Source: Oscillospiraceae bacterium (GTDB lineage Bacteria > Bacillota > Clostridia > Oscillospirales > Oscillospiraceae). Taken from it: 34,657 nt of DNA. Below, piece by piece: positions 3,005 to 31,978 of this stretch. The translations under genes and the position numbers were made by a program. Numbering within the stretch: the first letter of the stretch is position 1; each line of letters begins with the position of its first letter. Location: assembly GCA_017458335.1 (NCBI GenBank), contig JAFTFT010000026.1, positions 1 to 34,657 of the forward strand, written 5' to 3'. The notes below the pieces were generated by a model. The model ran no database searches. It was not told where the DNA came from and saw nothing but the letters and a program-made list of their open reading frames with translations.

Positions 3005-3024
3005 AAAACGAAGGAGAAACGACA

Positions 3025-4011: not shown

Positions 4012-4023
4012 GATGGTGAGATA

Positions 4024-5214: not shown

Positions 5215-5218
5215 GCTA

Positions 5219-5234
5219 CTAAATTCTCGTTTAT
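5219..5234 (-). repeat. hsdS inversion site 4 (reverse)
   Basis: The plus strand reads CTAAATTCTCGTTTAT, the reverse complement of the 16-base site 1. It lies 4 bases after the hsdS2 stop codon in non-coding DNA. That position makes sense only as the far end of an invertible hsdS2 second half. Confidence 0.86.
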
Positions 5235-5285
5235 CACAGATGTTAGTAACAGGGGAAGCTATTTGAAAAGAAAGGAGAAGCCAAC

Positions 5286-6055: not shown

Positions 6056-6116
6056 GCCCCACCAACGGCGGGAGTTATAGCCATCGGAACTTCCGCTGTT
6101 GTTCTACGGAATAATC
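6056..6116 (+). promoter_or_regulatory. Two-hairpin leader, copy B, upstream of hsdR
   Basis: CCCACCAACGGCGGGAGT (6058-6075) is identical to the block before the recombinase. A second hairpin follows with CGG (6085-6087) and CCG (6093-6095) around AACTT, then GTTCT..GGAATAA. Copy A has the same hairpin and a nearly identical loop, AACTG. Hairpin 1 is shorter here (CCC/GGG). hsdR's strong AGGAGGT ribosome site starts 8 bases downstream. Confidence 0.6.
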
Positions 6117-6137
6117 TCCATTCAGGAGGTAATTATT

Positions 6138-9100
6138 ATGCCTGGTCTTTATACCGAGGCGGATTATGAAAACTCCGTCATAGAGCTCTTTGAGAATATG
6201 GGCTATACACATGTGTATGGTCCGGATATCGAGCGCGATTTTACAAGCCCCCTCTATGATGAAGAGCTTGAGGATTCTATCCGTCGGCTGAATCCCGCTA
6301 TGCCTGAACCCGCGATCCAGGATGCACTGTATAAACTTCGGAACTTTGAAAACGGCGAGCTGGTGCAGAAAAATGCCGTTTTCATGGATTATCTTCAGAA
6401 CGGGATTCAGATAAGCTACTATGACGGCTCTGAACATAAGGCCGGACTGGTCTATCTGGTGGACTATAAACATAAGGAGAACAACTCCTTTATCGTTGCG
6501 AACCAGTGGACCTTCATTGAAAATAGCAACAAGCGTCCGGATGTGATCGTCTTCCTCAACGGCCTGCCTGTGGTGATCATTGAGCTGAAGTCTCCCTCCC
6601 GGGAGGAAACCGATGCCAGTGAGGCCTATCTCCAGCTGCGCAATTACATGTTGGAGATTCCCTCCATGTTCGTCTATAACGCCATCTGCGTCATGAGTGA
6701 CCAGGCAACAAGCAAGGCGGGGACAATTACCTCCGGCGAAGACCGATTCATGGAGTGGAAAACGAAGGACGGCAGCTATGAAAACACGGCTTATGCCCAG
6801 TTTGACACGTTCTTTGAAGGAATCTTCGAGCAGGATCGCTTTCTGGATATCCTGAAAAACTTCATCTGCTTCAGCAACGAAGGCACCAGAACATTCAAGA
6901 TTCTAGCCGGCTATCATCAGTATTTTGCCGTCCGCAAAGCGGTGGCCTCGACGGTCAGAGCCTCCGGAGCCGATGGAGACGGACGCGGCGGTGTGTTCTG
7001 GCACACTCAGGGTTCGGGAAAATCCCTGTCGATGGTGTTTTATGCACACCTCTTGCAGGAAGAGTTGGAGAGTCCGACCATTGTGGTCATCACTGACCGG
7101 AACGATCTGGATAACCAGCTTTTCAGTCAGTTTGCCAAATGCAGGGATTTCCTGCGTCAGACACCGGTGCAGGCTGAGAGCCGCCAGCATCTTCGCCTGC
7201 TTTTGGAGAATCGGCAGGCCAACGGCATTTTCTTCACTACCATGCAGAAGTTTGAGGTCTCGGATGAGGCCCTTTCAGAGCGCCGGAACATTGTTGTCAT
7301 GGCGGATGAGGCTCACCGGGGGCAGTACGGCCTGACGGAAAAAATTAAGATGGTCACGAACTCCGCCGGGGAAAAGGTCGCGAAGATTATCCAGGGCATT
7401 GCCCGCATCATTCGCAACAGCCTCCCAAAGGCTACCTATATCGGGTTTACAGGAACTCCCATCTCTCTGAAGGACCGGAGCACACGGGAAGTCTTTGGCG
7501 ATTATATTGATATATACGACATGACCCAGGCCGTGGCCGATGGTGCGACGCGTCCGGTATACTATGAAAGCCGCGTCATCAAGCTCCGTCTTGACCCTGA
7601 AGTGCTGAAGAGAATCGATGAAGAATATGAGCTCATGTCGGAGGAGGCCGACGAGGAGGTTATCGAGGCCAGCAAGAAACGCCTGGCACAGATGGAGACG
7701 ATATTAGGCGATGACAAGACCATTAACTCCCTGGTCTGTGATATTCTGGATCATTATGAGAATTATCGTGAAAATCTTCTGACCGGCAAGGCGATGATCG
7801 TTGCCTATTCCAGACCGATTGCCATGAAAATCTATAAACGGATTCTGGAGCTGCGTCCGAATTGGACGGAGAAAGTGGCGGTTGTTATGACCGGCTCCAA
7901 CAAGGACCCGGAGGAGTGGCATGAGATCGTCGGCAACAAGGCGCACAAGGAAGAGCTTGCGGTTAAGTTCAAGGACAATGACAGTCCACTGAAGATTGCG
8001 ATTGTTGTTGATATGTGGCTGACCGGCTTTGATGTGCCGTCTCTTGCAACCATGTATGTATTCAAACCAATGATCGGCCATAATCTGATGCAGGCCATCG
8101 CTCGGGTCAACCGTGTGTTCCAGGACAAGGAAGGCGGTCTGGTTGTAGACTATATCGGCATTGCCGCCGCATTGAAGCAGGCGATGAAGGATTATACCTC
8201 TCGCGACCAGAATAACTTCGGCGAAATGGATGTCGCGAAGGTCGCCTATGGAAAGTTCCGGGAGAAGATAGAAGTCTGCCGTGATATGCTGCATGGCTTT
8301 GATTATTCAGATTTCAGCGGAGACTCTGACCTCGCGCGCTCCAAGGCGATCAGCGGTGCCGTGAACTATATCCTCGGTATGGGTGATGCATGGAAAACCT
8401 ATGTTAAGGAAGCTTATCTGCTGCGTCAGGCGCTGTCGCTCTGTTCGGCGCTGGCTGGTGATGATGAGCGATTGGAGGCGGCTTTCTTCGAGGCATGCCG
8501 GGTGCTGATTCTTCGCCTGATGAGTCAGGGCGGGCATCATCGGCTGTCTTTGGCGGAGATCAACGAACGAATCAATGAACTCCTGAAACAGGCGGTTAAG
8601 AGTGAGGGCGTCATCAATCTCTTCTCCGATGTGAAAGAAGAATTTTCCATCTTTGACCCAAAGCTTCTGGAAGAAATCTCCAAAATGAAAGAGAAAAACA
8701 TTGTCGTTGAGATGCTCAAGAAGCTGCTGATGGAACAGGTGTCGTTGTATAGGAAAAGCAACCTGGTCAAATCTGAAGAATTCAGTGCGATCCTGACCCG
8801 GGTCATGAACAGCTACATCAACGGCATGATAGACAATGAGCAGGTGATCCAGGAACTGCTGCAGCTTGCTGCCCAGATCCAGGCGGCAAAGAAGCAGGGA
8901 GATGATCTGGGGCTGACAGAAGAGGAGCAGGCGTTTTATGATGCACTGACTCGCCCGGAGGCAATCAGAGATTTCTATCAGAACGATGAACTGGTCGCGA
9001 TGACACGTGAACTGACGGATACCCTCCGCAAAAATCGGACCATAGACTGGGAAAAGCGCGACGACGCCAGGGCAAAGATGCGCATGATGGTCAAAAAGCT

Positions 9101-9278
9101 TTTGAAGCGTTATAAATATCCGCCGGAAGGCATGGATGACGCAGTTCAGACGGTCTTAGCCCAGTGTGAACTCTGGACAGACAATGCGGAATACCAGGCG
9201 CCACAGGTTCTTCACTCCAATGTTGTCGAGTATGATTTCGCCGGAGCCTCCTCTTACAGAGAAGCAGCCGAGGATTGA
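6138..9278 (+). CDS. hsdR: Type I restriction enzyme motor/nuclease subunit HsdR
   Basis: HsdR adds ATP-driven DNA translocation and cleavage to the HsdM/HsdS complex when unmodified targets are met. The 1046-residue protein has an N-terminal PD-(D/E)xK nuclease (PDVIVFLNGLPVVIIELK, with D135, E149 and K151). A superfamily 2 helicase motor follows: Walker A HTQGSGKS (289-296), DEAH (390-393), FTGTP (437-441) and motif VI in ARVNRVF. A long C-terminal helical region for complex assembly ends the protein. The ATG at 6138 follows AGGAGGT at 6124-6130. All motifs look intact. The gene is separated from hsdM and hsdS by the recombinase and toxin-antitoxin pair, and a duplicated leader element precedes it. 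Confidence 0.96.
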   Translation: MPGLYTEADYENSVIELFENMGYTHVYGPDIERDFTSPLYDEELEDSIRRLNPAMPEPAIQDALYKLRNFENGELVQKNAVFMDYLQNGIQISYYDGSEHKAGLVYLVDYKHKENNSFIVANQWTFIENSNKRPDVIVFLNGLPVVIIELKSPSREETDASEAYLQLRNYMLEIPSMFVYNAICVMSDQATSKAGTITSGEDRFMEWKTKDGSYENTAYAQFDTFFEGIFEQDRFLDILKNFICFSNEGTRTFKILAGYHQYFAVRKAVASTVRASGADGDGRGGVFWHTQGSGKSLSMVFYAHLLQEELESPTIVVITDRNDLDNQLFSQFAKCRDFLRQTPVQAESRQHLRLLLENRQANGIFFTTMQKFEVSDEALSERRNIVVMADEAHRGQYGLTEKIKMVTNSAGEKVAKIIQGIARIIRNSLPKATYIGFTGTPISLKDRSTREVFGDYIDIYDMTQAVADGATRPVYYESRVIKLRLDPEVLKRIDEEYELMSEEADEEVIEASKKRLAQMETILGDDKTINSLVCDILDHYENYRENLLTGKAMIVAYSRPIAMKIYKRILELRPNWTEKVAVVMTGSNKDPEEWHEIVGNKAHKEELAVKFKDNDSPLKIAIVVDMWLTGFDVPSLATMYVFKPMIGHNLMQAIARVNRVFQDKEGGLVVDYIGIAAALKQAMKDYTSRDQNNFGEMDVAKVAYGKFREKIEVCRDMLHGFDYSDFSGDSDLARSKAISGAVNYILGMGDAWKTYVKEAYLLRQALSLCSALAGDDERLEAAFFEACRVLILRLMSQGGHHRLSLAEINERINELLKQAVKSEGVINLFSDVKEEFSIFDPKLLEEISKMKEKNIVVEMLKKLLMEQVSLYRKSNLVKSEEFSAILTRVMNSYINGMIDNEQVIQELLQLAAQIQAAKKQGDDLGLTEEEQAFYDALTRPEAIRDFYQNDELVAMTRELTDTLRKNRTIDWEKRDDARAKMRMMVKKLLKRYKYPPEGMDDAVQTVLAQCELWTDNAEYQAPQVLHSNVVEYDFAGASSYREAAED

Positions 9279-16622: not shown

Positions 16623-17837
16623 ATGAATAAATCCGATATCAAAAAAGTCGTTCTTGCATATTCCGGCGGTCTGGACACCTCCATCATTATCCCCTGGCTG
16701 AAGGAGAATTACAACAACTGTGAAGTCATCGCCGTTTCCGGCAACGTGGGCCAGGCGGACGAGCTCGAGGGGCTGGAGGAGAAGGCGACGAAGACCGGCG
16801 CCTCCAAGCTCTATATTCTGGATCTGACGGACGAATATGTGGACGACTACATCATCCCCTGCATGAAGGCCGGCGCCGTCTATGAGGACTATCTGCTGGG
16901 CACAAGTCATGCCCGGCCCTGCATCGCCAAAGGCCTTGTGGAGATCGCCCTGAAGGAAGGCGCGGACGCCATCGTCCACGGCTGCACGGGCAAGGGCAAC
17001 GACCAGGTTCGTTTCGAGCTGGCCATCAAGCACTTTGCGCCGAACATGCCGATCATCGCACCCTGGCGTGAGTGGAACATCAAGTCCCGTGACGAGGAGA
17101 TCGACTATGCCGAGGCGCATAACGTCCCCCTGAAGATCAACCGCGAGACCAACTACTCCAAGGACAAGAACCTCTGGCATCTGTCCCACGAGGGCCTGGA
17201 TCTGGAAGACACCGGAAACGAGCCGATGTATGAGAAGCCAGGCTTCCTGGAGATGGGCGTCTCTCCGCTGCAGGCGCCGGATGAACCCACCTATGTGACG
17301 CTGGACTTCGTGCAGGGTGTTCCGGTGGCGCTGGACGGCGAGAAGATGAGCGCCAAGGAGATCATCCTGAAGCTGAACGATCTTGGCGGAAAGAACGGCA
17401 TCGGCCTGATCGACATCGTTGAGAACCGCCTGGTCGGCATGAAGTGCCGCGGCGTGTACGAGACCCCGGGCGGCACGATCCTCTACGCGGCCCACAAAGC
17501 GCTGGAGACGCTCTGCCTCGACAAGCTGACCATGCACGAAAAGCAGAAGCTCGCCATCACCTTCGGCGAGCTGGTCTACAACGGCCAGTGGTTCACCCCG
17601 CTGCGCGAAGCGCTCAGCGCCTTCGTGGACAAGACCCAGGAGCGCGTCACCGGCAAGGTAAAGCTCAAACTCTACAAGGGCAACATCATCAAGGCCGGCA
17701 TCTGGAGCGACAAATCCCTCTACAGCGAAGAGATCGCCACCTTCGGTGAAAGCGATTACAACCAGGCGGACGCCGCCGGCTTCATCAACCTCTACGGACT
17801 GCCCATCAAGGTGCAGGCCATCGTCGACGGAAAGTAA
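16623..17837 (+). CDS. argG: Argininosuccinate synthase
   Basis: ArgG joins citrulline and aspartate using ATP to give argininosuccinate, the penultimate step of arginine synthesis. The 404-residue length is normal. The N-terminal PP-loop for [11 protein letters not shown] (13-20), is intact, and other family segments are present ([32 protein letters not shown]). The ATG at 16623 follows AAGGAG. It is the first gene of the nine-gene arginine operon, right after the operon promoter, and argH follows after 3 bases. Confidence 0.97.
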
Positions 17838-17840: not shown

Positions 17841-19217
17841 ATGGCGAAGATGTGGGCCGGCGTCACGGCCGGCAGGACCGACCGCCTGGCGGATGACTTC
17901 AATTCGTCCATTCGCTTTGACAGCCGGATGGCCCGCCAGGATATCACCGGGAGCATCGCTCACGCGGCAATGCTCGCGGCAAAGGGGATCATCTCCGAGG
18001 CGGACTGCGATGCTCTGACCGAGGGCCTCACCGGGATTCTGGAGGATCTGGAGAGCGGAAAGCTCCTGATCGACGAAAGTGCGGAAGACATCCATATGTT
18101 TGTCGAACAGGTTCTGACCGAGCGCATCGGAGACACCGGAAAAAAACTCCACACGGCCCGCAGCCGGAACGACCAGGTGGCGCTGGATCTGAGAATGTAT
18201 CTGAGAGATGAGAGCGACGAAATCGCCGCTCTCATCCGCGGCTTTCTTCATGTGCTCACCGATCTCGCCGAGAAGCATACCGAAACCATCATGCCGGGCT
18301 ATACGCATCTACAGCGAGCCCAGCCGGTGAGCTTCGGCCATTATATGATGGCATACGCGATGATGCTGCTGCGTGATCTGGACCGGCTGAAGGACTGCAG
18401 AAAGAGAATCAACATCTCTCCCATCGGCTGCTGTGCCCTGGCGGGGACCACCTACGACACCGACCGGTATCTGGAGGCGGAGAAGCTGGGCTTTGACGGC
18501 ATCTGTCTCAATAGCATGGACGGCGTCTCGGACCGGGATTTTGCCCTGGAGCTGCTGAGCGCACTGTCGATTCTCATGATGCACCTCTCGCGGCTCTCTG
18601 AAGAGCTGATCCTCTGGGCCAGCTGGGAGTTTCGTTTTATCTCCTTCTCCGATGCCTACACCACGGGTTCTTCCATCATGCCGCAGAAGCGCAACGCCGA
18701 CATGGCCGAGCTGGTGCGCGGGAAGACCGGGCGGGTCTATGGGGACCTGATGGGCCTGCTCACCACGCTGAAAGGCCTGCCCCTTGCTTATAACAAGGAC
18801 ATGCAGGAGGACAAAGAGGGCGTTTTTGACGCCTGCGACACGGTGAAGATGTGTCTGAAAATCATGACTCCGATGCTCGCGACCATGACCGTGAACCGGG
18901 AAAACATGCTGCGCGCGGCGCAGGGCGGCTTCATCAACGCCACCGATCTTGCCGACTGGCTGGTGAAGAAGGGGATGCCCTTCCGGAATGCCTATAAGAT
19001 CTCCGGGCAGCTGGTGCGGACATGCATGGAGAGCGGACAGGTTCTGGAGACGCTTCCGCTGGAGACGTACCGGACGTACAGCGAACTCTTCGACGAAAGC
19101 CTCTATGAGGCAATCGACCTGAAGACCTGCATGGAAAAACGGATCAGCGAGGGCGGCACTTCGGCGGCCTCCGTGGAAAAGCAGATTGCGTTTGTCAGAA
19201 AGGAACTGAACCAATGA
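17841..19217 (+). CDS. argH: Argininosuccinate lyase
   Basis: ArgH splits argininosuccinate into arginine and fumarate, the last pathway step. The 458-residue protein belongs to the fumarase/aspartase superfamily. It shows TARSRNDQVALDLRMY (105-120), YTHLQRAQP (154-162) and the signature loop GSSIMPQKRN (276-285) containing the catalytic serine. Length is usual. Its start lies 3 bases after argG and its stop overlaps the argC start (ATGA), implying coupled translation. Confidence 0.97.
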   Translation: MAKMWAGVTAGRTDRLADDFNSSIRFDSRMARQDITGSIAHAAMLAAKGIISEADCDALTEGLTGILEDLESGKLLIDESAEDIHMFVEQVLTERIGDTGKKLHTARSRNDQVALDLRMYLRDESDEIAALIRGFLHVLTDLAEKHTETIMPGYTHLQRAQPVSFGHYMMAYAMMLLRDLDRLKDCRKRINISPIGCCALAGTTYDTDRYLEAEKLGFDGICLNSMDGVSDRDFALELLSALSILMMHLSRLSEELILWASWEFRFISFSDAYTTGSSIMPQKRNADMAELVRGKTGRVYGDLMGLLTTLKGLPLAYNKDMQEDKEGVFDACDTVKMCLKIMTPMLATMTVNRENMLRAAQGGFINATDLADWLVKKGMPFRNAYKISGQLVRTCMESGQVLETLPLETYRTYSELFDESLYEAIDLKTCMEKRISEGGTSAASVEKQIAFVRKELNQ

Positions 19218-20128
19218 CAAAGGTTTTTATAGACGGCAGCGCCGGCACCACCGGCCTGCGGATTCATGAGCGCCTGGCCGATCGGAAGGAACTGGAGATC
19301 CTGAGCCTGCCGCCGGAGCTGCGGAAGGACAGGGCGGCCAGGGAAGAGATCCTGAACGCCGCGGATGTGGCTTTCCTCTGCCTGCCGGATGCGGCGGCGA
19401 TTGAGGCGGCGGACCTGGTGCACGGCGATACCGCCGTCATCGACACCTCTACTGCCCACCGCACCGAGCCGGGCTGGGACTACGGCTTCCCCGAGCTCCA
19501 CGGCCTGCGGGAAAAGATCGCCGTCAGCCGCCGGATCGGAAATCCCGGCTGTCACGCCAGCGGATTCATCTCCCTGGTGGAGCCCCTGGTGCATGAGGGC
19601 CTGGTATCCCCGGATACGGCTTTTACCTGCTTCTCGGTGACCGGATATTCCGGCGGAGGAAAGAGCATGATCGCCGACTACGAGGCAGAGGGAAGAGACG
19701 CAGCGATGGATTCGCCCCGGCAGTATGCCCTGGGCCAGAGCCACAAGCACCTGAAGGAGATGGTGAAGATCTCCGGTCTCACGACGGCCCCGTTCTTCTG
19801 CCCGATTGTCGCGGACTATTACAGCGGCATGGCGGTGACGGTGCCCCTGTTCCGGAAGGACCTGAAGGGAAGCGTCGAGGACGTGAAGCAGCTCTATCAG
19901 GCCTGCTACCACAGCAAGATTGTCCACTATAAGGAATATACCGAAGGTCTGATCGCCGGAAACGCCCTCTCCGGGCGCGACGACATGGTGATCACGGTGG
20001 CCGGCAACGACGAGCGGATCCTTCTGATCTCCACCTTTGACAACCTGGGCAAAGGCGCCTCCGGTGCGGCCATCCAGAACATGAACATTCTTCTGGGACT
20101 TGACGAAACCACCGGACTTGCAGTATAA
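19214..20128 (+). CDS. argC: N-acetyl-gamma-glutamyl-phosphate reductase, short type 2 form
   Basis: ArgC reduces N-acetylglutamyl phosphate to the semialdehyde with NADPH. At 304 residues it matches the shorter ArgC type, not the roughly 345-residue form common in Bacillus. The nucleotide-binding start is VFIDGSAGTTGLRIHERL, and the catalytic Cys113 lies in GNPGCHASGF. The start overlaps argH by 4 bases. argJ follows after 37 bases. Confidence 0.95.
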   Translation: MTKVFIDGSAGTTGLRIHERLADRKELEILSLPPELRKDRAAREEILNAADVAFLCLPDAAAIEAADLVHGDTAVIDTSTAHRTEPGWDYGFPELHGLREKIAVSRRIGNPGCHASGFISLVEPLVHEGLVSPDTAFTCFSVTGYSGGGKSMIADYEAEGRDAAMDSPRQYALGQSHKHLKEMVKISGLTTAPFFCPIVADYYSGMAVTVPLFRKDLKGSVEDVKQLYQACYHSKIVHYKEYTEGLIAGNALSGRDDMVITVAGNDERILLISTFDNLGKGASGAAIQNMNILLGLDETTGLAV

Positions 20129-20165
20129 CAGAGCGAAACTGAACCCCTTTGAAGGAGAAATAACC

Positions 20166-21401
20166 ATGAACAATCCTGTTTCATCGATCAAACCGGTCAG
20201 CGGCGGCGTCTGTGCCGCAAAAGGCTTTCAGGCCGCCGGCGTTTACTGCGGGATCCGGAAAAATCCGAACAAGAAGGATCTTGCCCTCATCGTGAGCGAT
20301 GTGAAGGCGAATGCCGCAGCCGTCTATACCACGAATCTTGTCAAGGGCGCTCCCCTGACCGTGACAAAAAGCCACATCGCCGACGGCAAAGCCCAGGCGG
20401 TCATCTGCAACAGCGGCAATGCCAACACCTGCAATGCCGACGGCATCGAGATCGCCGAGACCATGAGCAGCCTTCTGGCCGATGCGCTCTCCATCGCGGC
20501 GAACGACGTGGTCGTGGCATCCACCGGCGTCATCGGACAACCGCTTCCCATCGCCCCCATCGCCTCGGGCATTCCGCCTCTGGTGGCAAACCTGTCTCCG
20601 GAGGGAAGCGGGGAGGCCTGCAGCGCCATCATGACCACCGATACGAAGAAGAAAGAAGTCGCGGTGGAGTTTGAACTGGACGGAAAGATCTGCCATCTGG
20701 GCGGCATCGCCAAGGGCAGCGGCATGATCCACCCCAACATGGCCACCATGCTGGTTTTCCTGACCACGGACGCCGCAATCAGCGCGCCCATGCTGCAGAA
20801 GGCGCTCTCCGGCGATATCCGGACCACGTTCAACATGATCAGTGTGGACGGCGACACCTCCACCAACGACATGGTGACGATTCTTGCCAACGGCCTTGCC
20901 GGCAATACCGAGATCACCGAGGAGGGCGACGATTTTGCGACCTTCATGTGCGCCCTGAACACCGTGAACGTCCAGCTCTGCCGGATGATCGCCGGGGACG
21001 GCGAGGGCGCGACGAAACTGCTGGAATGCTCCGTCACCGGGGCGAAGGATGACAAGGCGGCAAAGACCGTCGCCCGCAGCGTCATCAGCTCCAGCCTGAC
21101 CAAGGCGGCGATGTTCGGCGAGGACGCCAACTGGGGCCGCGTGCTCTGCGCCATCGGCTACAGCGGCGCGGACGTCGATGTGCAGAAGGTGGGGGTGGTC
21201 TTCCGCTCCGTGGCGGGCGAGGTCACCGTCTGTGAAAATGGAGCCGGCGTTCCTTTCTCCGAGGAGAAGGCGGCAGAGGTCCTGCACGAGAAAGAGATCG
21301 ACATCCTGATCACCCTCGGCGACGGAGTGGCTTCGGCCACCGCCTGGGGCTGCGACCTCACCTATGATTACGTAAAGATCAACGGAGACTACCGGACCTG
21401 A
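20166..21401 (+). CDS. argJ: Bifunctional ornithine acetyltransferase / N-acetylglutamate synthase
   Basis: ArgJ moves the acetyl group from N-acetylornithine to glutamate, recycling it, and in bifunctional forms also makes N-acetylglutamate from acetyl-CoA. The 411-residue precursor carries the self-cleavage site in KGSGMIHPNMATML: cleavage between Ala193 and Thr194 would expose Thr194 as the nucleophile. The start at 20166 was chosen for its AAGGAG; the frame stays open 66 bases further upstream into argC. No argA-like gene is present here, consistent with ArgJ starting the pathway. Whether it is mono- or bifunctional cannot be told by eye. Confidence 0.95.
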   Translation: MNNPVSSIKPVSGGVCAAKGFQAAGVYCGIRKNPNKKDLALIVSDVKANAAAVYTTNLVKGAPLTVTKSHIADGKAQAVICNSGNANTCNADGIEIAETMSSLLADALSIAANDVVVASTGVIGQPLPIAPIASGIPPLVANLSPEGSGEACSAIMTTDTKKKEVAVEFELDGKICHLGGIAKGSGMIHPNMATMLVFLTTDAAISAPMLQKALSGDIRTTFNMISVDGDTSTNDMVTILANGLAGNTEITEEGDDFATFMCALNTVNVQLCRMIAGDGEGATKLLECSVTGAKDDKAAKTVARSVISSSLTKAAMFGEDANWGRVLCAIGYSGADVDVQKVGVVFRSVAGEVTVCENGAGVPFSEEKAAEVLHEKEIDILITLGDGVASATAWGCDLTYDYVKINGDYRT

Positions 21402-21470: not shown

Positions 21471-21522
21471 GAAGATGCCGTCAAATCTGTAGATTATGCA
21501 AACAAAAACGGGAGACCCTGAC

Positions 21523-22404
21523 ATGAATCAGTTTACAAACAGCCAGAGGGCCCAGGTGCTGACCCAGGCCCTGCCCTATATCCGGCAGTACAACGGAAAG
21601 ATCGTTGTGGTCAAGTACGGCGGCAACGCCATGGTCAGCGAGGAGCTGCGCGAGCAGGTCATGGAGGATATTGTCCTGCTGTGGCTGGTAGGCGTGCGGG
21701 TCGTCCTGGTGCACGGCGGCGGGCCGGAGATCAGCGACATGATGAGCAGACTCGGAAAGAAGCCGGAGTTTGTGGACGGACTTCGCGTCACGGATCAGGA
21801 GACCGTGGACATTGTCCAGATGGTCCTCGCCGGCAAGGTCAACAAGACGCTGGTGAAACTCCTGGAGGTCAAGGGCGGCAAGGCCATGGGTATCTCGGGA
21901 ATGGACGGCGGCCTGATCGAAGCGAAGATGAAGCGTGCGGAACTGGGCTATGTCGGGAGCATTACGAGCGTAAACATCGAACCCGTGATGGACCTGCTGG
22001 AGAAGGGTTATATCCCCGTGATCTCCACACTGGGCTGTGACAAGGAAGGCAACACCTACAACATCAACGGCGACACCGCCGCGGCTTACATTGCCGGCGC
22101 CCTGGGCGCCGAACGCCTCATTATGATGACGGACATCGCGGGTGTTCTGCGGGATAAGAACGACCCGAACACACTGATCCCCGAGCTGACCATCGGCGAG
22201 GCAATCAAGCTCTTTGAAGAAAAGGTCATCGCAGGCGGCATGATCCCCAAGGTGGAATGCTGCATCGACGCCATCCACCGAGGCGTGGAACGCGTGATCA
22301 TCATGGACGGCAGAGTGCCGCACTCGATCCTGATGGAGATCCTGACGGACGAAGGCGCGGGCACCATGGTATACGGAGAGGAGACGGAACTATGTCAGAA
22401 CTGA
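21523..22404 (+). CDS. argB: Acetylglutamate kinase
   Basis: ArgB phosphorylates N-acetylglutamate with ATP. The 293-residue protein has the amino-acid kinase motifs KYGGNAM (31-37), VHGGGPEI (63-70) and GISGMDGG, and a normal length. The N-terminal extension before the kinase core (about 25 residues) is of the type linked to arginine feedback inhibition in family members; that property is inferred. The ATG at 21523 has GGGAG about 8 bases upstream; an in-frame ATG at 21496 lacks a ribosome site. It follows a 121-base gap holding the hairpin and overlaps argD by 13 bases. Confidence 0.96.
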   Translation: MNQFTNSQRAQVLTQALPYIRQYNGKIVVVKYGGNAMVSEELREQVMEDIVLLWLVGVRVVLVHGGGPEISDMMSRLGKKPEFVDGLRVTDQETVDIVQMVLAGKVNKTLVKLLEVKGGKAMGISGMDGGLIEAKMKRAELGYVGSITSVNIEPVMDLLEKGYIPVISTLGCDKEGNTYNINGDTAAAYIAGALGAERLIMMTDIAGVLRDKNDPNTLIPELTIGEAIKLFEEKVIAGGMIPKVECCIDAIHRGVERVIIMDGRVPHSILMEILTDEGAGTMVYGEETELCQN

Positions 22405-23555
22405 AAACCATCGACAAAGAATACATCGCCAATACCTATGCACGCTTCCCGGTCGAACTGGTGAGCGGCAAGGGGTCCCTTGTTTATGATGAGAGCGGCA
22501 GGGAATACATCGACATGGGCAGCGGCATCGGCGTCACTGCCTTCGGCATTGCCGACGACGAGTGGAAGGCGGCCGTGACCGGACAGCTGGGCAAGCTCCA
22601 GCATATGTCCAATCTCTACTACACCGAACCCTGCGCCAGGCTGGCGAAGCTGCTCTGTGAAAAGACCGGCATGAAGAAGGTCTTCTTCTGCAATTCCGGC
22701 GCGGAGGCCAACGAGGGCGCCATCAAGGCCGCCCGCAAGTACGCCGCAGAGAAGAAGGGCCCGGATTACTTCACGATCGTCACATTGGAGAACAGCTTCC
22801 ACGGCCGTACGCTCACGACGCTGGCCGCCACAGGCCAGGCCCACTACCATGAGCTTTTCCAGCCGCTGACCCCGGGCTTTGTCCACGCCCCGGCCAATGA
22901 CCTGGAGGCGGTGAAGACCGCGGCGCTTCAGAACAAGGCCGCCGCTGTTCTGATTGAATGCATCCAGGGCGAGGGCGGCGTCATCCCGCTGCAGAAGGAC
23001 TTTGTCACAGGTCTCGCGGCGTTCTGCAAGGCGGAAGACATCCTCCTGATGGTGGATGAGGTTCAGACCGGCAACGGCCGTACCGGCGAGCTCTATGCCT
23101 ATATGAACTTCGGTGTGCAGCCGGATGTGGTCTCTACAGCGAAGGGCCTCGGCGGCGGACTGCCGCTGGGCGCGGTGATGTTCGGCGAAAAGACCGAGTT
23201 CACCCTGGGCGCCGGCGACCACGGCTCCACCTTCGGCGGGAACCCGGTCTGCTGCGCCGGCGCACTGAGCATTCTGAGCCGGATCGATGACAAGCTTCTG
23301 GCGGATGTGAAGAAAAAGAGCGCCATGGCCTTTGCGGCTCTGCAGGGGGCCCCCGGTGTGGAGAGCGTCAGCGGCATGGGGCTGATGATCGGCATCAAGC
23401 CAGTGAAGCCAGCCTCCGACGTGGTGAAGGCCTGCATGGAGAACGGCGTTCTGTGCCTTACGGCGAAGGACAAGGTCCGCCTGCTTCCGGCTCTGAACAT
23501 TCCGGAAGACATCCTGATGAAAGCCATTGAAGTGATCAAAGGAGCGTGCGCATGA
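22392..23555 (+). CDS. argD: Acetylornithine aminotransferase
   Basis: ArgD converts N-acetylglutamate semialdehyde to N-acetylornithine using glutamate and pyridoxal phosphate. The 387-residue class III aminotransferase has [15 protein letters not shown] (101-115), the cofactor-binding Asp222 in MVDEVQTG and the Schiff-base Lys251 in [13 protein letters not shown]. The start at 22392 lies inside the end of argB behind GGAGAGGAG. The stop overlaps the argF start (ATGA). Family members often also take succinyl-diaminopimelate, a possible link to the DapF domain downstream. Confidence 0.96.
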
Positions 23556-24535
23556 ATCTGAAGGGAAAGAGCTTTCTGAAACTGCTGGACTTCACGCCGG
23601 AAGAGATTGAAGGACTTCTGGATCTGGCGGCGGACCTGAAAGCAAAGAAAAAGGCAGGGATCCCGCACCGGCTGCATGAGGGCAAGAGCATCGCACTTGT
23701 GTTTGAAAAGACCAGTACCCGTACGCGCTGCAGTTTTGAAGTGGCTGCGGCGGACCTCGGGATGCACCCCGTGTATCTGGACCCGAAAAGCTCACAGTTG
23801 GGGAAGAAGGAGAGCATTGCCGATACGGCCCGGGTTCTGGGACGGATGTTTGACGGCATTGAGTACCGCGGCTTTGAGCAGACTCGTGTGGAGAAGCTGG
23901 CCGCGTATTCCGGTGTCCCGGTGTGGAACGGCCTGACCAATGAGTTCCATCCGACCCAAATTCTGGCGGACTTCCTCACAATCCGGGAGCATTTCGGTTC
24001 CCTGAAGGGGAAGAAGCTGGTCTACCTCGGGGATGCCCGGTATAATATGGGCAATTCCCTCATGGTCGGCTGCGCCAAGATGGGTCTGCACTTTGTGGCC
24101 TGCGCGCCGGAGAAGTACTTCCCGGATGCGGCGCTGATTGAAGAATGCAAAGCCGTCGCGGCAGAAACCGGCGCCACACTGGAGTTTGAGACCGATCCGA
24201 TGAAGGCTGTCCGGAACGCAGATGTCCTGTACACGGATATCTGGGTGTCCATGGGAGAGCCGGAAGAGGTCTGGGCAGAGCGTATCCATGATCTTCTGCC
24301 GTACCAGGTGACGCAGACCCTGATGGAGACCGCGGGAGAACAGTGCCGCTTCATGCACTGCCTGCCGGCTTATCACGATCTTGAGACCGAGAACGGCGTT
24401 GCGATTTATGAGAAATTCGGCCTGGAGGCCATGGAAGTGACGGATGAGGTCTTTGAAGGACCCCGGTCCATCGTCTTCGACGAGGCGGAGAACCGCATGC
24501 ACACCATCAAGGCGGTCATGGCCGCAACACTGTAA
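23552..24535 (+). CDS. argF: Ornithine carbamoyltransferase
   Basis: ArgF combines ornithine and carbamoyl phosphate to make citrulline. The 327-residue protein shows the carbamoyl-phosphate-binding STRTR (55-59), the FHPTQ segment and the ornithine-site HCLPA. The ATG at 23552 overlaps the argD stop and has GGAG 7 bases upstream; a GTG at 23546 is less likely. The genes for its carbamoyl phosphate supply, carA and carB, follow directly. Confidence 0.96.
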
Positions 24536-24544: not shown

Positions 24545-25669
24545 ATGGAAACTGTCTATCTGGTATTGGAAAACGGGATGGCCTTTGCGGGTCATCCCAT
24601 TGGTGCATGGAAGGGAACCGATCCCGGCCTCGAGACCGTGGGCGAGCTGGTGTTCACCACCGGTATGACCGGTTATCTCGAGACCCTGACCGACCCAAGC
24701 TATGCCGGGCAGATCATCCTTCAGACCTTCCCCTTGATCGGCAACTACGGCCTGATCCCCGAAGACTTCGAGGGCGCCTGCCATGCAAAGGGCTATGTGG
24801 TGCGCGAGCTCTGTGACGCTCCGTCGAACTTCCGGAGCCGCGGCACGCTGGACACCTTTCTGAAGGAGCAGGGGATCCCGGGAATCTGCGGTGTGGATAC
24901 CCGCGCACTGACCCGTCTGATCCGTGAGCAGGGAGTGATGAACGCCTGCCTCTGCCGGGCGGTCCCGGAGGACCTCGAACCGGTCAAAGCGTATGCGGTA
25001 CAGCATGTCGTCGCGCAGGTCAGCACCCCGGCGGCGCAGGTCTTTGAGCCATGGAACACAGGGGACGGTTCTCTGTGTTTTCGGAACACAGAGAACCGTC
25101 CCCTGTGTTCCTATAACGTGGCGCTTCTGGACTACGGTGCCAAGCGGAATATTATCCGAAGCCTGCAGAAGAGGGGATGCCGGGTGACGCTGCTGCCCCA
25201 CGACACCACCGCGGAAGAGATCCTTGCCCTGGCGCCGGACGGGCTGATGCTCTCCAACGGCCCCGGAGACCCGGCCGAGAATGTCTTTGAGGTCGAACAG
25301 CTCCGGAACCTGGTGGGGAAGCTCCCCATTTTCGGCATCTGCCTCGGGCATCAGCTCTGCGCGCTGGCCATGGGCGGGAAAACCTACAAGCTCAAGTACG
25401 GTCACCGCGGCACCAACCAGCCCGTCACGGACGGTGTGCACACCTGGATCACCACCCAGAACCACGGTTACGCCGTGGAGACAGGGAGCATGCAGGGCAT
25501 TGCGCACCTGAGTTTCCGCAATGCAAATGACGGAAGCTGCGAGGGCCTGGACTATCCGGGAAAACGCTGCTTCACGGTGCAGTTTCATCCGGAGGCGTGT
25601 GCGGGCCCCCATGATACGGATTTTCTGTTTGACCGCTTTTTACGGATGATAAGAGGGGAGGAGGACTGA
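24545..25669 (+). CDS. carA: Carbamoyl-phosphate synthase small (glutaminase) subunit
   Basis: CarA hydrolyses glutamine and channels ammonia to CarB. The 374-residue protein has the N-terminal CarA domain (1-160) and a class I amidotransferase domain (about 191-374) with nucleophile Cys266 in GICLGHQL and the His349/Glu351 pair in VQFHPEA. Between the domains, residues about 170-190 (WNTGDGSLCF RNTENRPLCSY) are encoded by a perfect palindromic repeat (25053-25111) that has kept the frame open. This falls in the interdomain linker, so activity is probably kept. The start lies 9 bases after argF with a weak ribosome site. carB begins 1 base after the stop. Confidence 0.96.
   Translation: METVYLVLENGMAFAGHPIGAWKGTDPGLETVGELVFTTGMTGYLETLTDPSYAGQIILQTFPLIGNYGLIPEDFEGACHAKGYVVRELCDAPSNFRSRGTLDTFLKEQGIPGICGVDTRALTRLIREQGVMNACLCRAVPEDLEPVKAYAVQHVVAQVSTPAAQVFEPWNTGDGSLCFRNTENRPLCSYNVALLDYGAKRNIIRSLQKRGCRVTLLPHDTTAEEILALAPDGLMLSNGPGDPAENVFEVEQLRNLVGKLPIFGICLGHQLCALAMGGKTYKLKYGHRGTNQPVTDGVHTWITTQNHGYAVETGSMQGIAHLSFRNANDGSCEGLDYPGKRCFTVQFHPEACAGPHDTDFLFDRFLRMIRGEED
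25053..25111. repeat. Palindromic repeat (REP/REPIN- or MITE-like) inside carA
   Basis: Two perfect 27-base arms (25053-25079 and 25085-25111, core GGGGACGGTTCTCTGTGTT) flank a 5-base loop TTCGG. GGGGACGGTTCTC-type palindromes are familiar as dispersed repeats in Clostridia and other bacteria, some linked to REP-associated transposases; that link is recalled, not tested. It lies in frame within carA and no second copy is in the window. Confidence 0.85.
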
Positions 25670-25670: not shown

Positions 25671-28600
25671 ATGCCGAAGGACAGGAGCATCCATAAGGTC
25701 CTGATGATCGGTTCCGGACCGATCGTCATCGGCCAGGCGGCTGAGTTTGACTACGCGGGTGCGCAGGCCTGCCGGATTCTGCGGCAGGAGGGCATCGAGA
25801 CCGTCCTCGTCAACTCCAACCCCACCACCATCATGACCGACAAGAAGCTGGCCGACGCCATCTATCTGGAACCCCTGACGCCGGAGACCCTGCGCCGCAT
25901 CATCGCCAAGGAGCGTCCGGACGGCCTGCTGGCAGGCCTCGGCGGACAGACCGGTCTGACCCTCGCCATGCAGCTCAGCCGTGACGGAACGCTTCAGAAA
26001 TACGGCGTGCGCCTGCTCGGCTCGGACATCGAAAGCATCGAACGTGCCGAGGACCGTGAACGCTTCCGCGAGACACTGGAGGAGATGGGTCAGCCCGTGA
26101 TCCCCTCCGCCACCGCAACCACGGTGGAACAGGCGCTTCAGATCGCCCTGGAGATCGGTTACCCGGTTATCGTCCGCCCTGCCTATACCCTGGGCGGCAC
26201 CGGCGGCGGCATCGCCGATACGCCGGAGGAGCTCTCTTCCATCGCCCGGAACGGACTGGATCTGTCGCCCATTACCCAGGTGCTCATCGAGAAGTGCGTG
26301 TCCGGCTGGAAGGAGATCGAGTTTGAAACCATGCGGGACGCGGCCGGAAATGTAATTGCCGTCTGCAGCATGGAGAACTTCGACCCGGTCGGCATCCACA
26401 CCGGCGACTCGATCGTCGTGGCGCCGGCGCTGACGCTGGCGGATAAGGAATACCAGATGCTGCGCAGCGCGGCCCTGGACATCATCACGGCACTTGGGAT
26501 CGTGGGCGGCTGCAACTGCCAGTTCGCTTTGAACCCGGAGAGCTTCGAATACGCCGTCATTGAGGTCAACCCCCGCGTTTCCCGTTCCTCCGCCCTGGCG
26601 TCAAAGGCCACGGGCTATCCCATCGCGAAGATCAGCACGCGCCTGGCCCTGGGCTACACGCTGGACGAGATTCCCAACGACATCACCGGCAAGACCTGCG
26701 CCTGCTTCGAACCTGCCCTGGACTATGTGGTGGTGAAACTGCCAAAGTGGCCCTTTGACAAGTTCCCCCACGCCTCACGCCGCCTGGGCACCCAGATGAA
26801 AGCCACGGGCGAGGTGATGGCCATCGCCCCCAGCTTTGAGATGGCCCTGATGAAAGCGGTACGAGGCGCCGAGATCTCCCTGGACAGCCTGAATCTTGCT
26901 TCACCGGATCCCCGCCCGCTCCGTACACGTCTGCTGGATCAGGATGACCACCGCCTTTTTACGGTGTTTGAAGCCCTGAAGCAGGGGATGACCCCGGAAG
27001 AGATACATGAGCTTACGAAGATCGACCTCTTCTTTCTACGGAAGCTGGAAGGCCTCGCCGCCTTCGAGCTGCGTATTGCGGGCAGCTCCCTGAGCGGCTC
27101 GGATTACGCCATGGCCAAGCGCCTGGGCTACCCCGACTCCGCCCTGCGCCGCCTCACCGGCGCCCAGCTCCCGGCGGAGACCGCCTTCTCCTACAAGATG
27201 GTGGACACCTGCGCCGCCGAGTTTGACGCCGAGACACCCTATTTCTACTCCTCCTGTGATGAACTCTGTGAATCCCGCAGCTTCCCGCGCAGCGGGAAAC
27301 CCGTGGTGATGGTTCTGGGCTCCGGACCCATCCGCATCGGCCAGGGCATCGAGTTTGACTACAGCTCGGTCCACTGCGTCTGGACCCTGCGGGAGATGGG
27401 CTACGACGTGGTCATCGTGAACAACAACCCCGAGACGGTCTCCACCGACTATGACACTGCCGACCGGCTCTACTTTGAGCCTCTCTGCCCCGAAGACGTC
27501 TGGAACATCATTCAGGTGGAAAAGCCGGTGGGTGTGGTGGTGGCCTTCGGCGGCCAGACGGCCATCAAACTGACCGGCTTTCTCTCCGAACAGGGCATTC
27601 CCATCCTGGGCACCTCCGCCGACAGCATCGACACCGCGGAGGACCGGGCCCGCTTCGACGCGCTCCTGGAGCGCTTCGGTATCAGCCGCCCGAAGGGCCA
27701 CGGGGTAAACACGCTGGAGGAAGCGCTCTCCGCGGCCGAGGACCTGGGCTATCCGGTGCTTCTGCGCCCCAGCTATGTCATCGGAGGCCAGAATATGTGC
27801 ATCTCCCGCGACCGCGAAACTACCGAGACCTATATGCGCAGTATTCTTGCCGGAGGCATTGAAAACCCCGTCCTGGTGGACAAGTACATGCCCGGGATCG
27901 AGCTGGAGGTGGACGTGATCTCGGACGGCACCGACGTCCTGATCCCCGGCATCATGGAACACATCGAACGTGCAGGCGTCCACAGTGGCGACTCCATCGC
28001 GGTCTACCCGCCATACAATCTGACCGACCCCTTCCTCCACCGGATCTGCGACGTCTCCGAAAAGCTGACCCTGGCCCTGGGCACCAGGGGGCTGGTAAAC
28101 ATCCAGTACCTGATTTATGAGGGGGAGCTCTATGTCATTGAGGTCAATCCCCGCGCCTCCCGCACCGTCCCGTACATCTCCAAGGTGACGAACGTCCCCA
28201 TGGTGGATCTGGCCTCACGCATCATGCTGGGGGCGAAGCTGAAGGATCTGGGCTACGGCACCGGCCTCTGGCGCACGCCGCCCTACTATGCCGTGAAGGT
28301 CCCGGTGTTCTCTTTTGAAAAGCTCTCGGACGCAAACTCCATCCTTGGCCCCGAGATGAAGTCCACCGGAGAGGTTCTCGGCCTTGGCCGCAGTTTTGCC
28401 GAAGCCATGTACAAAGGCCTGACCGCTGCCGGATTCCACATCCCCTCCGCCGGGGATAAGGTCCTTCTCAGTGTAGAGACCGCGGACTATCCCGAGATCC
28501 TGAACCTCGCCCGCCGCTTCCATGAGCTGGGCCTGAAGCTCTGCGGCACCGAAGGTACTGCGGCCACCATCGCCGGGGCGGGGCTGCCGGTGGAGCGCTT

Positions 28601-29711
28601 TGAAGCGGAACAGATCCTCCGCGGTGAGGCTCCCGGCCTGAAGCTTATCGTCTACACGGGTGCCGTGAAGGACGGTACCATGGGAGACTATATCGCCCTG
28701 CATCGGCGCGCCATGCAGCTGGGCATTCCCTGTCTGACCTCCCTGGATACCGCCGGGGCCCTGGCAGACAGCATTGCCTCGCGCTACAGTCAGAGCAACA
28801 CCGAGCTGGTGGACCTGAACCGCATGCGCCGCTGGCGCCGGACGATTCCCTTCACCAAGATGCAGGACTGCGGAAACGACTATATCTTTATCGAAAACTT
28901 CGACGGAAGCGTGTCCTGTCCGGAATCCCTCTGCGTCTCCCTCTGCCAGCCGCACTACGGCATCGGCGCCGACGGCATCGTCCTCATGGAGCACTCCGCC
29001 AGAGCGGATGTGCGCATGCGCAGCTTCAACCGGGACGGCAGTGAGGGGAAAATGGCCGGCAACAACCTGCGCTGCGTGGGCAAGTACATGTACGACCGGG
29101 GCTATCTCCGGACGGAACATCTCTCGGTGGAGACCGCCGGGGGCATCCGCCGCCTGAAGCTCTTCTGCCGCGACGGACAGGTGAGTTCCGTATCCGTGGA
29201 TATGGGCAGGGCAAAGCTGGACGCCGCCTCGGTTCCGCTCAACATAGAAAAACTCGCTGATTCAGAGTGTAACATCGATCAGGACACATTCATTAAAGAT
29301 TTTCCCGTAGAGATTGCAGACTCGACCTGGCATATTACCTGCCTCTCGGTGGGAAACCCCCACTGCGTTGTCTTCTGCGACACGGTGGATACACTGGATC
29401 TGGAGACCGTAGGCCCGCAGTTTGAGCATGCCGAGATCTTCCCGGAACGGGTGAATGCCGAGTTTGTGAGGGTCGTGAGCCGTACGGCGCTGCGGATGCG
29501 AGTCTGGGAGCGCGGCAACGGCGCCACCCTCGCATGTGGGACCGGCGCCTGCGCGGCTGTGGTGGCCGCGGTCGAAAACGGCTTCTGCGACAAGGGGACT
29601 GACGTCAGGGTGACTCTCCCGGGCGGGGATCTGACCGTCAATTATACCGACGACCGGGTGGTCCTGACCGGAAGCGCCAACGTCGTCTTCTCCGGAACCT
29701 TTGAGTATTGA
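25671..29711 (+). CDS. carB: Carbamoyl-phosphate synthase large subunit fused to a DapF-like epimerase domain
   Basis: Residues 1-1053 form a complete CarB: two ATP-grasp halves (GSGPIVIGQAAEFDYAG near the start; GSGPIRIGQGIEFDYSS near 547) and the C-terminal allosteric MGS-like domain ending ELVDLNRMR. CarB makes carbamoyl phosphate from bicarbonate, ATP and CarA-derived ammonia. Without a stop or linker, residues about 1054-1346 continue as a full-length DapF domain (IPFTKMQDCGNDYIF, GIGADGIVLM, NPHCVVF, ACGTGACAA). DapF normally interconverts LL- and meso-diaminopimelate for lysine and wall synthesis using two cysteines. Cys1289 is present, but the first is Ala1129 (MAGN instead of MCGN). 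An ATG at 28824 could start a separate DapF but has no clear ribosome site. A strong AGGGGAGGAGG site precedes the start. Confidence 0.93.
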   Translation: MPKDRSIHKVLMIGSGPIVIGQAAEFDYAGAQACRILRQEGIETVLVNSNPTTIMTDKKLADAIYLEPLTPETLRRIIAKERPDGLLAGLGGQTGLTLAMQLSRDGTLQKYGVRLLGSDIESIERAEDRERFRETLEEMGQPVIPSATATTVEQALQIALEIGYPVIVRPAYTLGGTGGGIADTPEELSSIARNGLDLSPITQVLIEKCVSGWKEIEFETMRDAAGNVIAVCSMENFDPVGIHTGDSIVVAPALTLADKEYQMLRSAALDIITALGIVGGCNCQFALNPESFEYAVIEVNPRVSRSSALASKATGYPIAKISTRLALGYTLDEIPNDITGKTCACFEPALDYVVVKLPKWPFDKFPHASRRLGTQMKATGEVMAIAPSFEMALMKAVRGAEISLDSLNLASPDPRPLRTRLLDQDDHRLFTVFEALKQGMTPEEIHELTKIDLFFLRKLEGLAAFELRIAGSSLSGSDYAMAKRLGYPDSALRRLTGAQLPAETAFSYKMVDTCAAEFDAETPYFYSSCDELCESRSFPRSGKPVVMVLGSGPIRIGQGIEFDYSSVHCVWTLREMGYDVVIVNNNPETVSTDYDTADRLYFEPLCPEDVWNIIQVEKPVGVVVAFGGQTAIKLTGFLSEQGIPILGTSADSIDTAEDRARFDALLERFGISRPKGHGVNTLEEALSAAEDLGYPVLLRPSYVIGGQNMCISRDRETTETYMRSILAGGIENPVLVDKYMPGIELEVDVISDGTDVLIPGIMEHIERAGVHSGDSIAVYPPYNLTDPFLHRICDVSEKLTLALGTRGLVNIQYLIYEGELYVIEVNPRASRTVPYISKVTNVPMVDLASRIMLGAKLKDLGYGTGLWRTPPYYAVKVPVFSFEKLSDANSILGPEMKSTGEVLGLGRSFAEAMYKGLTAAGFHIPSAGDKVLLSVETADYPEILNLARRFHELGLKLCGTEGTAATIAGAGLPVERFEAEQILRGEAPGLKLIVYTGAVKDGTMGDYIALHRRAMQLGIPCLTSLDTAGALADSIASRYSQSNTELVDLNRMRRWRRTIPFTKMQDCGNDYIFIENFDGSVSCPESLCVSLCQPHYGIGADGIVLMEHSARADVRMRSFNRDGSEGKMAGNNLRCVGKYMYDRGYLRTEHLSVETAGGIRRLKLFCRDGQVSSVSVDMGRAKLDAASVPLNIEKLADSECNIDQDTFIKDFPVEIADSTWHITCLSVGNPHCVVFCDTVDTLDLETVGPQFEHAEIFPERVNAEFVRVVSRTALRMRVWERGNGATLACGTGACAAVVAAVENGFCDKGTDVRVTLPGGDLTVNYTDDRVVLTGSANVVFSGTFEY

Positions 29712-29833: not shown

Positions 29834-31978
29834 TCAGGCGCAGTTGATCAGAATGTACCCGCATTCCGGGCAGATCGAAACCGCTCCGCTGAGCCCGTCG
29901 CCGTCATTCTCCAGATCGTGAAGCTTTTTCAGCTCTTCGTACGGATAGAGATAGGCCTTGATGGGGAGATTGTCATACGCCACATAGACGCAGTCGCCGT
30001 CGTCCTTGAAGCTCTCGATGGCAAGCGTCCAATCGAGCCAGCTGCCCTGCCCGAAGCTCACAAAACTCTCGCCCGGGTTCACGACCGCTTTGCAGTAGCG
30101 GTTGATTCTGATTCCGTCGTCCTTGTGAAGCTCATTGAAGACGGCCGGAGCTTCTTCGCCGAGACTGCCGGTGTTGGTGAGGGCATATTTCTGCCCGTTC
30201 TCGGTGGGGACCCGCTCGAGAATCACCAGGCCGATCTTTGCATCCTTCGGGAGCAGCAGTTTTTCCGACAGCTCCATCCGGTGATAGCCTGCATAGAGAA
30301 AGCTCTGCGTTTCACTCTTCAGGAGCTTTCCGTCCGTGGGATTCACCGCGTTATCGTCCAGCAGGTAGACCGACACCGTCACCGAGGTGTTCATGTCGCC
30401 GGTCATAACGGACACATACTGCAGGACGCTGTCTTCGCCCGTCTCAAACACATTGGCGGAATAAACCGGTTTATCAAACAGTGTCGAGCTGATGATCTCA
30501 GCCGGCATATTGTCGTACTCCAGCAGGGAGAGATGATCCATCTCACGGTTTGCGTCATCGACCACGTATTCAAAGCTGCAGATGCCGCACAGAGACTGAT
30601 CATAGTAGGAGAGCCAGAAATACCCGTCATCGCCCCAGTCTGTGTCCCAGCTGTTCTTCACGATCCAGGCGCCGGGCTCCGGCGGCTGATACCCCTCGCG
30701 GAACGCGCTGACCGGGAAGCTGTCGTCCCAGCCCACCGCTGTCACGGCGTGGTTGGACTGCACAGGTTCATAGGTATAATGCGCATAGATGATCGGATCT
30801 TCTCCGGTGAAGTTCAGATAAGGGATGTGCGCGGCATCTTCCTCTTCCTCCGCGACCAGCGTGTCATAGTCATCGCCGAAGTAGTGCGACTTCAGCACCC
30901 GGATGGTCTGCTCCCGGTCCAGGCCCGCATCGGCATAGGGGTCGGCGTCCAGTTCGAAGATCCGGACTGTAATGTCTTTCAGGGTTTCCAGCTGCTCATC
31001 CGATACAGAGTCGGGCTCGGTGATGCCGGAACGGAAGTCCGCATACTGTTCCAGTTCCTCCTCCGTCACGCCGTCGATTCCCTGAAGGTGCTGCAGCAGG
31101 CGGCTGCGCACGGCCGGAGGATCCTGCGGCATCGACTGATCCGCCTTGAAGCTGATTCCGACCGCTCTGCCCTTCAGCAGCTCGCTCTTGATCGCTTCCG
31201 TTCCTTCCGGACGATAGACGTAGTTTCCGTCTTCGTCCCTCCCGGCGGGCGCCGGGAGCATATTGGCGTTCAGAAGTTCAAAGCTCTGCGTAAAACGCTG
31301 CTCCTCCGGCAGCGACCAGTCGCCGGTGGGATCCGGGTTACCCTCGCTGTCACCGTAAGGGACGAGGGCTTCTTTCACGACGCCGACACCGGAAGCGAGG
31401 GACGAGGTGGAGAGGAAGTAGTTCCCGCCGAAGTTATACGTTGTCACGTCGGTATCTTCCAGCGCATACACGCCCTCGCCGGCCTGGCTCACATCATAAG
31501 GATACTGCCCTTCCGGATAGTCCTCCGCCGCCGGCAGCGGGGTGGTCGTAAACCATGCCAGGTGCTTCTCCGAAAGGTCCATTTCTTCGCCGTATTTTTC
31601 GGCATATTCTTCCGCCGTCAGCCCCATCGCGCTGAGAATGGAGGACTCGCTGGCGCCCATGGTGCCAAAGGTCCAGCAGGTGCCCCAGGGGCTCTGGTCC
31701 TTCACGGAGGTAACGACGCTGCGGTCTCTGAGGTCAAACTTCTCCGGGAAAGTGTCTCCGACAGAGGTCCAGAGCACCTCGGAATAGAGGTCGTCCACAT
31801 CCTCACCCGTGCGCATCAGGGTTTTCGCCGGCTTCTGCAGTTCACTTCCCAGATAGTCCAGTGCGTTCCGGTCCGATTCGGAAAGCCCGCTTATGGGGTA
31901 GTGCTCAGCAAACGCGCCTGTCGTGAGCGAGAGCGTCATGACAACCGCAAGAAACATGCACAGCGCTGTTTTTTTCAT
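29834..31978 (-). CDS. Secreted papain-like (C1) cysteine protease with a lectin-like domain
   Basis: The 714-residue protein has a clear signal peptide ([20 protein letters not shown], cut near AFA-EH). The papain-family catalytic residues are visible: Gln95 and Cys101 in [12 protein letters not shown], His in [12 protein letters not shown] and Asn in [21 protein letters not shown] beta-rich region after about residue 490 resembles the lectin-like domain found with C1 proteases in Clostridia. A long insert (about 205-395) separates the catalytic Cys and His. The tail ends with [12 protein letters not shown], a CxxC pair unusual outside the cell. It is probably exported to degrade proteins or remodel surface proteins. 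The start has AGGAGGATC upstream. It follows pepT by 58 bases and may share its transcript. Confidence 0.88.

Follow-up and report, generated by a model that had tools for sequence, protein, structure and literature searches.

The 34,657-nucleotide stretch of Oscillospiraceae DNA analysed here (the window) carries a gene, carB~dapF, in which the large subunit of carbamoyl-phosphate synthase (CPSase), CarB, is joined in frame to the diaminopimelate (DAP) epimerase DapF. We favour, with moderate confidence, the reading that its product is an arginine-dedicated CPSase large subunit carrying a C-terminal pseudo-epimerase as an accessory, probably regulatory, part. The in-frame fusion, first proposed in a preliminary description of this DNA, is real and conserved in relatives, which do not all keep CarB and DapF as separate proteins. 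Repeated loss of catalysis inside this conserved fusion is a more interesting finding than the fusion itself.

A conserved in-frame fusion of CarB and DapF

The CPSase large subunit model TIGR01369 matches residues 2-1032 of the protein (model positions 1-1049 of 1052; 1355.8 bits against a cut-off of 1027), and the DapF model TIGR00652 matches residues 1060-1344 (259.2 bits against 114.65). The layout is that of a full CPSase large subunit (residues 1-1037) followed by a full-length DapF (1060-1344). About six residues (RRWRRT) lie between the two parts, and the join is in frame; the absence of a linker, as first described, holds to within this short segment. The G+C content at third codon positions is 0.73-0.87 in each 100-codon block of the gene. 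In an AlphaFold2 model of the MGS and DapF domains (pLDDT 91), the two-domain DapF fold is present, with a TM score of 0.92 to a solved DapF, normalised by target length. The DapF part is thus complete in length and fold, as originally claimed, but not in its active site. We also notice an A/T-rich stretch at 29242-29310 of the window, which gives its DapF domain about 10 residues more than most aligned relatives have.

A profile of the junction detected an uninterrupted MGS-DapF stretch in 142 genomes of an even sample of 394 from the order and in 19 of 398 drawn from the phylum, the window's own genome being included in both; 17 of these 19 are from outside the order. In a set made up of the own genome and 59 relatives, fusions of full length occur, at 60-82% identity, in the genus and in further families of the order. 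When named genomes were scanned with fused DapF domains, the 80 top-ranked loci were kept from a longer list, and 50 of these were fused, by title mostly from Oscillospiraceae, Ruminococcus and other Clostridia of guts and rumens. Some species may be represented in more than one of the three samples. The preliminary description was not aware of the fusion as a standard architecture. Our literature searches (for the fusion, for C73A with DapF and for a DapF pseudoenzyme) returned no description of it, judged from the search results alone; its frequency in the order, however, calls for a qualification of that view.

An assembly or sequencing artefact joining two genes was considered, as the titles of many assemblies mark them as metagenomic and the own genome (G000) is 83.7% complete. 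However, the same join recurs in many independent assemblies, among them the order genomes counted above, the Ruminococcus sp. FC2018 record (L088) and the single-contig genome G659, which excludes chance or sequencing error and leaves the artefact a negligible probability. A separate DapF made from an internal start was likewise rejected, since no Shine-Dalgarno-like match precedes any in-frame start within 28701-28900 of the window. Among 76 fused loci, 10 have a weak match of this kind before some start near the DapF start (six lacking a catalytic cysteine, four with both), which we took as chance without a control.

Two fused loci (L096, L129) are titled Treponema, perhaps through misbinned contigs or gene transfer. 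In six genomes (L150-L155) a pyrimidine-type carB is followed directly, after one stop, by a dapF with two cysteines, a second carB-dapF association. At L156 (G060:C7), a carB~dapF lacking a catalytic cysteine (814-4875) ends in a stop, beyond which a separate dapF with two cysteines (4879-5679) continues on the same strand and in the same frame.

Loss of the catalytic cysteines and retention of the pocket

DapF catalyses with a pair of cysteines, and C73 and C217 are named among its catalytic residues (PMC3581254; this and the other sources cited by PMC number are used in part). In an alignment with solved DapFs and relatives, the window has Ala at the C73 position and Cys at the C217 position. 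Both cysteines are found in all 51 stand-alone DapFs compared, a set from which the L124 fragment was excluded. In contrast, only 23 of the 76 aligned fusions have both (Cys-intact) and 53 miss at least one (Cys-lost). The C73 position is A in 38, C in 24, G in nine, S in three, F in one and T in one, whereas the C217 position is C in 75 and S in one. These counts include three loci that are 96% alike (L011, L012, L013), two that run off contig ends (L085, L091), one split by a frameshift (L124) and one with a stop near the DapF end (L099). A second sample took odd ranks, 60 in number, from the 126 order fusions (of 142 in all) beyond those already examined. Of these 60, both cysteines are present in 16 and at least one is missing in 44 (C73 position: A 30, C 18, G 6, S 4, F 2; C217 position: C 55, S 3, N 2). 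Both cysteines are gone in L157, L158, L166, L222, L238 and L239.

In PddB, a relative of DapF, changing either catalytic cysteine leaves less than 0.1% of activity (PMC8225329), and E. coli DapF C73&217A makes no meso-DAP, although it still binds and activates RppH (PMC4227774, in the part available). From its sequence we infer that the window's DapF domain does not epimerise DAP. Two coupled activities, as earlier suggested for the window protein, are not supported, because its first catalytic cysteine is Ala.

On the other hand, the pocket residues N11, N64, N75, N157, H159, N190, E208 and R209 are all present in the window, and the pocket is among the best-conserved parts across the 53 Cys-lost domains. 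By the roles given in the available part of the PddB study (PMC8225329), the retained N64, N157, N190, R209 and E208 are sites for the non-reacting L-amino-acid end of DAP. Purifying selection acts on the DapF domain in relatives; across 20 compared pairs, the domain changes 1.1-2.5 times faster than CarB does. In L238 and L239 (G122, G237), the fusion persists though both cysteine places and E208, R209 and N190 are changed.

To place these losses, we built a tree of CarB by a quick method, with the MGS and DapF parts removed; it has 103 rows, and pyrimidine CarB serves as its root. Rows with fewer than about 800 CarB residues were excluded, and short rows of the kind of L085, L091 and L109 may be missing. 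Six unfused arginine-type CarBs branch first, and 87 fused rows fall under one branch (98, starred, that is, well supported). Because the same branch holds the unfused L051 and L052, the simplest history that fits is one fusion origin and two later losses of the domain, of which that in L051 lies within a Cys-lost clade. Every stand-alone DapF compared has both cysteines, so the fused ancestor was taken as a two-cysteine form; cysteine loss then falls into about 11 groups, with at least seven losses forced by starred branches. On the trees, the simplest history is that the fusion arose once from a two-cysteine stand-alone DapF, with repeated losses of catalytic cysteines afterwards. The 45 fused rows of the window's clade are without exception Cys-lost. 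A DapF tree, with both cysteine columns masked, agrees in outline, its middle being weakly supported.

The MGS domain of the window lacks the motif K.HE ... TSxKGR of relatives and reads VYTGAVKDGT. Arginine-specific CPSases can do without this nucleotide-effector motif, which does not define the family. We take it as the nucleotide phosphate site; T977 and K993 of E. coli CarB matter for uridine monophosphate (PMC6245113, in part), and their mapping onto the motif is our own. Scored by a simple pattern, the motif is complete in 21 of the 23 Cys-intact fusions, the other two having the TS part, whereas it is wholly absent from 42 of the 53 Cys-lost fusions. The remaining 11 Cys-lost fusions keep it and lie outside the window's clade. 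It is missing in all 41 of the 76 rows placed in that clade, and the 42nd case, L091, is a contig fragment off the CarB tree. Where a locus has 2.2 kb or more of upstream flank, the gene immediately before carA is an arginine gene in 11 of 21 Cys-lost cases versus none of 13 Cys-intact ones. Motif loss and this gene order together suggest that, in the lineage of the window, the enzyme came to serve arginine synthesis specifically. The window's CarB is the arginine copy of its genome, since the one other CarB found there, unfused and 48% identical, adjoins pyrC, pyrK and pyrD in a pyrimidine cluster.

Alternative epimerases and possible roles of the fused domain

We compared which fusion-bearing genomes have another route to meso-DAP. 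Of the 50 named genomes with a fusion, 18 of the 30 Cys-lost versus three of the 20 Cys-intact ones show a stand-alone DapF (Fisher p 0.003, relatedness ignored), and 26 of 30 versus 11 of 20 show either DapF or the meso-DAP dehydrogenase Ddh (Fisher p 0.02, relatedness ignored); Ddh alone shows no difference (13 of 30 versus 11 of 20). These stand-alone DapFs were found by profile with their cysteines not read, two are fragments (G065, G070), and the records do not state the completeness of the named genomes. In nine of the 20 named Cys-intact genomes, including Ruminococcus sp. FC2018, and in G037, no other DapF or Ddh was found; in two of those nine (G093, G101) DapB was not found either. 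Because no alternative was found there, the fused domain of such Cys-intact relatives is probably a working epimerase and the protein bifunctional.

The search for another dapF in the window's own genome, proposed at the outset, found none, and DapB and lysA were not found either in this 83.7% complete assembly. Across 37 genomes of the genus, DapB passes the cut-off only in G014 (not in G000), with weak matches below it in G008 and G012, whereas lysA passes in nine of the 14 fusion-bearing ones. The idea that the genus makes no DAP, leaving the domain free, had been drawn from the absence of DapB; the occurrence of lysA in many genus genomes led us to abandon it. Family scans of the genes near lysA and the other dapF at five loci gave nothing useful. 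Several genus members (L035-L044) have another kind of DapF with a GDPGIPH-like motif and both cysteines, which the tree sets well apart from the fused type.

In the history that we propose, the fusion would have begun as a bifunctional protein, whose epimerase half repeatedly became a non-epimerising accessory part of CPSase. An amino acid might still be bound in the retained pocket of the window's domain; such a ligand is plausible because the retained sites serve the L-amino-acid end of DAP. The domain would influence the synthase domains beside it, either by binding an effector or by stabilising them, much as dead DapF acts on RppH in E. coli. Precedents for an accessory domain of this kind may be seen in that regulation of RppH (PMC4227774) and in the inactive dihydroorotase-like domain of a CPSase polypeptide (PMC6245113), both taken from the available parts of these sources. 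A regulatory role, one of the options first raised, is also the one that we favour as probable. A more specific version is tentative: on many independent occasions the captured DapF may have turned into an additional allosteric domain of CPSase, losing catalysis but keeping the pocket, and may serve as an amino-acid sensor (for DAP, lysine, ornithine or arginine), replacing the eroded nucleotide site in the window's clade.

Several observations weigh against a regulatory pseudo-epimerase. When relatedness is taken into account, the association of cysteine loss with an alternative epimerase comes down to five independent pairs on starred branches, which is not significant and underpowered. No alternative epimerase was found in the Cys-lost G080, G085, G086 and G106, or in G041, where C217 is Ser. 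Five genomes of the genus (G002, G010, G016, G028, G029; 57-90% complete) have lysA and a fusion with Ala, with no other DapF or Ddh found, and would fit residual epimerase activity. The domain is dispensable, as two lineages (L051, L052) dropped it. The second cysteine persists in 52 of the 53 Cys-lost domains of the aligned set, more than a pure binding domain needs. Loss of the MGS motif coincides with the window's clade and therefore counts as about one event, not many.

The retained cysteine makes a one-base enzyme the main rival: with C217 kept and a small residue at C73, the domain might catalyse another amino-acid reaction, such as β-elimination, dehydration or half-isomerisation. C217 is present in all 40 hand-picked rows of the window's clade, the pocket is kept, and the proline racemase family includes a Cys-Thr type that is a dehydratase (PMC4364671, in part); such dehydratases share the DapF fold. 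That type has Cys first and Thr second, the window Ala first and Cys second. We nevertheless regard a one-base enzyme as rather unlikely. Different residues (A, G, S, T, F) stand in place of the lost cysteine. The six loci that lost both cysteines keep the domain, two of them (L238, L239) with the pocket residues lost as well, and the arginine genes around the fusion suggest no other substrate. A domain retained merely through the fusion, for folding, stability or dimer contacts and with no sensing, has a somewhat smaller chance still. Its faster evolution relative to CarB, its two losses on the tree and the wrecked pocket of G122 and G237 would all suit such a passive tail, but a passive tail has no need of the pocket that is so well conserved in the Cys-lost domains. 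We find it improbable that a working CarB-DapF couples arginine and DAP synthesis in the window too. The fused DapF is the only one found in its genome, lysA is frequent in the genus, and the Cys-intact genomes with no other epimerase found speak for such an enzyme; yet Ala occupies a catalytic position of a two-base enzyme, the corresponding changes abolish activity in PddB, and neither DapB nor lysA was found in the incomplete own genome.

This one fusion provides a dense natural series of unfused CarBs branching below it, two-cysteine fusions that look bifunctional, one-lost, both-lost and ruined-pocket fusions, and secondary losses, which makes testable the question of how an enzyme domain becomes a regulator. 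It also bears on annotation. Calling such genes DapF would credit many gut bacteria with an epimerase that probably does not work, and calling them CarB alone would miss what is possibly the sole epimerase of Cys-intact cousins.

Operon context and comparison with known systems

An arginine operon, argG-argH-argC-argJ-argB-argD-argF-carA-carB~dapF, ends with the fusion gene (Table 1). No RNA family reaches its gathering score in the window. Outside the operon, a Type I restriction-modification locus (204-5214 and 6099-9278) comprises hsdM, three hsdS-like pieces, one of them on the opposite strand, a phage-type integrase and then hsdR, and resembles a shuffling, phase-variable specificity gene. 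A Zeta-toxin-like/AAA protein (5413-6045) lies between the restriction genes, and a papain-family protease with a lectin-like domain is encoded at 29834-31978 on the minus strand.

Table 1. Features of the arginine operon and of the fusion gene, in window positions
Feature	Position	Strand	Remarks
argG	16623..17837	+	
argH	17841..19217	+	
argC	19214..20128	+	
argJ	20100..21401	+	
argB	21496..22404	+	
argD	22257..23555	+	start codon uncertain; frame overlaps argB
argF, ornithine carbamoyltransferase	23546..24535	+	
carA, CPSase small subunit	24545..25669	+	TIGR01368 over cut-off; directly upstream of fusion
carB~dapF fusion gene	25671..29711	+	single frame, 1346 residues, one terminal stop
First CPSase ATP-grasp domain	26052..26669	+	PF02786, residues 128-333
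CPSase oligomerisation domain	26931..27155	+	PF02787
Second CPSase preATP-grasp domain	27303..27632	+	PF25596, residues 545-654
MGS-like allosteric domain of CarB	28494..28781	+	Pfam match 28494-28658; end placed at end of CarB match
DapF domain	28848..29702	+	TIGR00652, residues 1060-1344
Ala1129, codon GCC	29055..29057	+	position of catalytic Cys73 of E. coli/H. influenzae DapF
Cys1289, codon TGT	29535..29537	+	position of second catalytic cysteine, Cys217

The CarB part resembles the CPSase large subunit (TIGR01369; E. coli CarB) in its domain order up to MGS, its over-cut-off match, the upstream carA and the arginine operon. It differs in the extra C-terminal DapF domain and in the nucleotide-effector motif lost in the window's clade. 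The added domain shares with DapF (TIGR00652; 9mro, 3ejx, 2otn) an over-cut-off sequence match, the fold, the ligand pocket and the second catalytic Cys; unlike DapF, it has Ala for the first catalytic Cys, and it is fused, with no gene of its own.

Among systems in which such a fold or a dead domain serves another enzyme, the E. coli DapF-RppH pair (6d13, 6vck; PMC4227774, in part) is similar in that a DapF fold that does not itself catalyse (C73&217A) can control a second enzyme. There, however, DapF is a separate, active epimerase, whereas here a fused domain stands beside CPSase as its putative regulator. Yeast CPSase-aspartate transcarbamoylase is likewise a CPSase polypeptide carrying an inactive dihydroorotase-like domain (PMC6245113, in part); in that pyrimidine enzyme the dead domain is a different one and lies in a linker. 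In the Cys-Thr members of the proline racemase family (such as trans-3-hydroxy-L-proline dehydratase), the fold is the same and a single catalytic Cys of the pair is replaced. They are distant in sequence, at about 12-16% identity in fold matches, the second Cys is replaced there and the first here, and their reaction is known.

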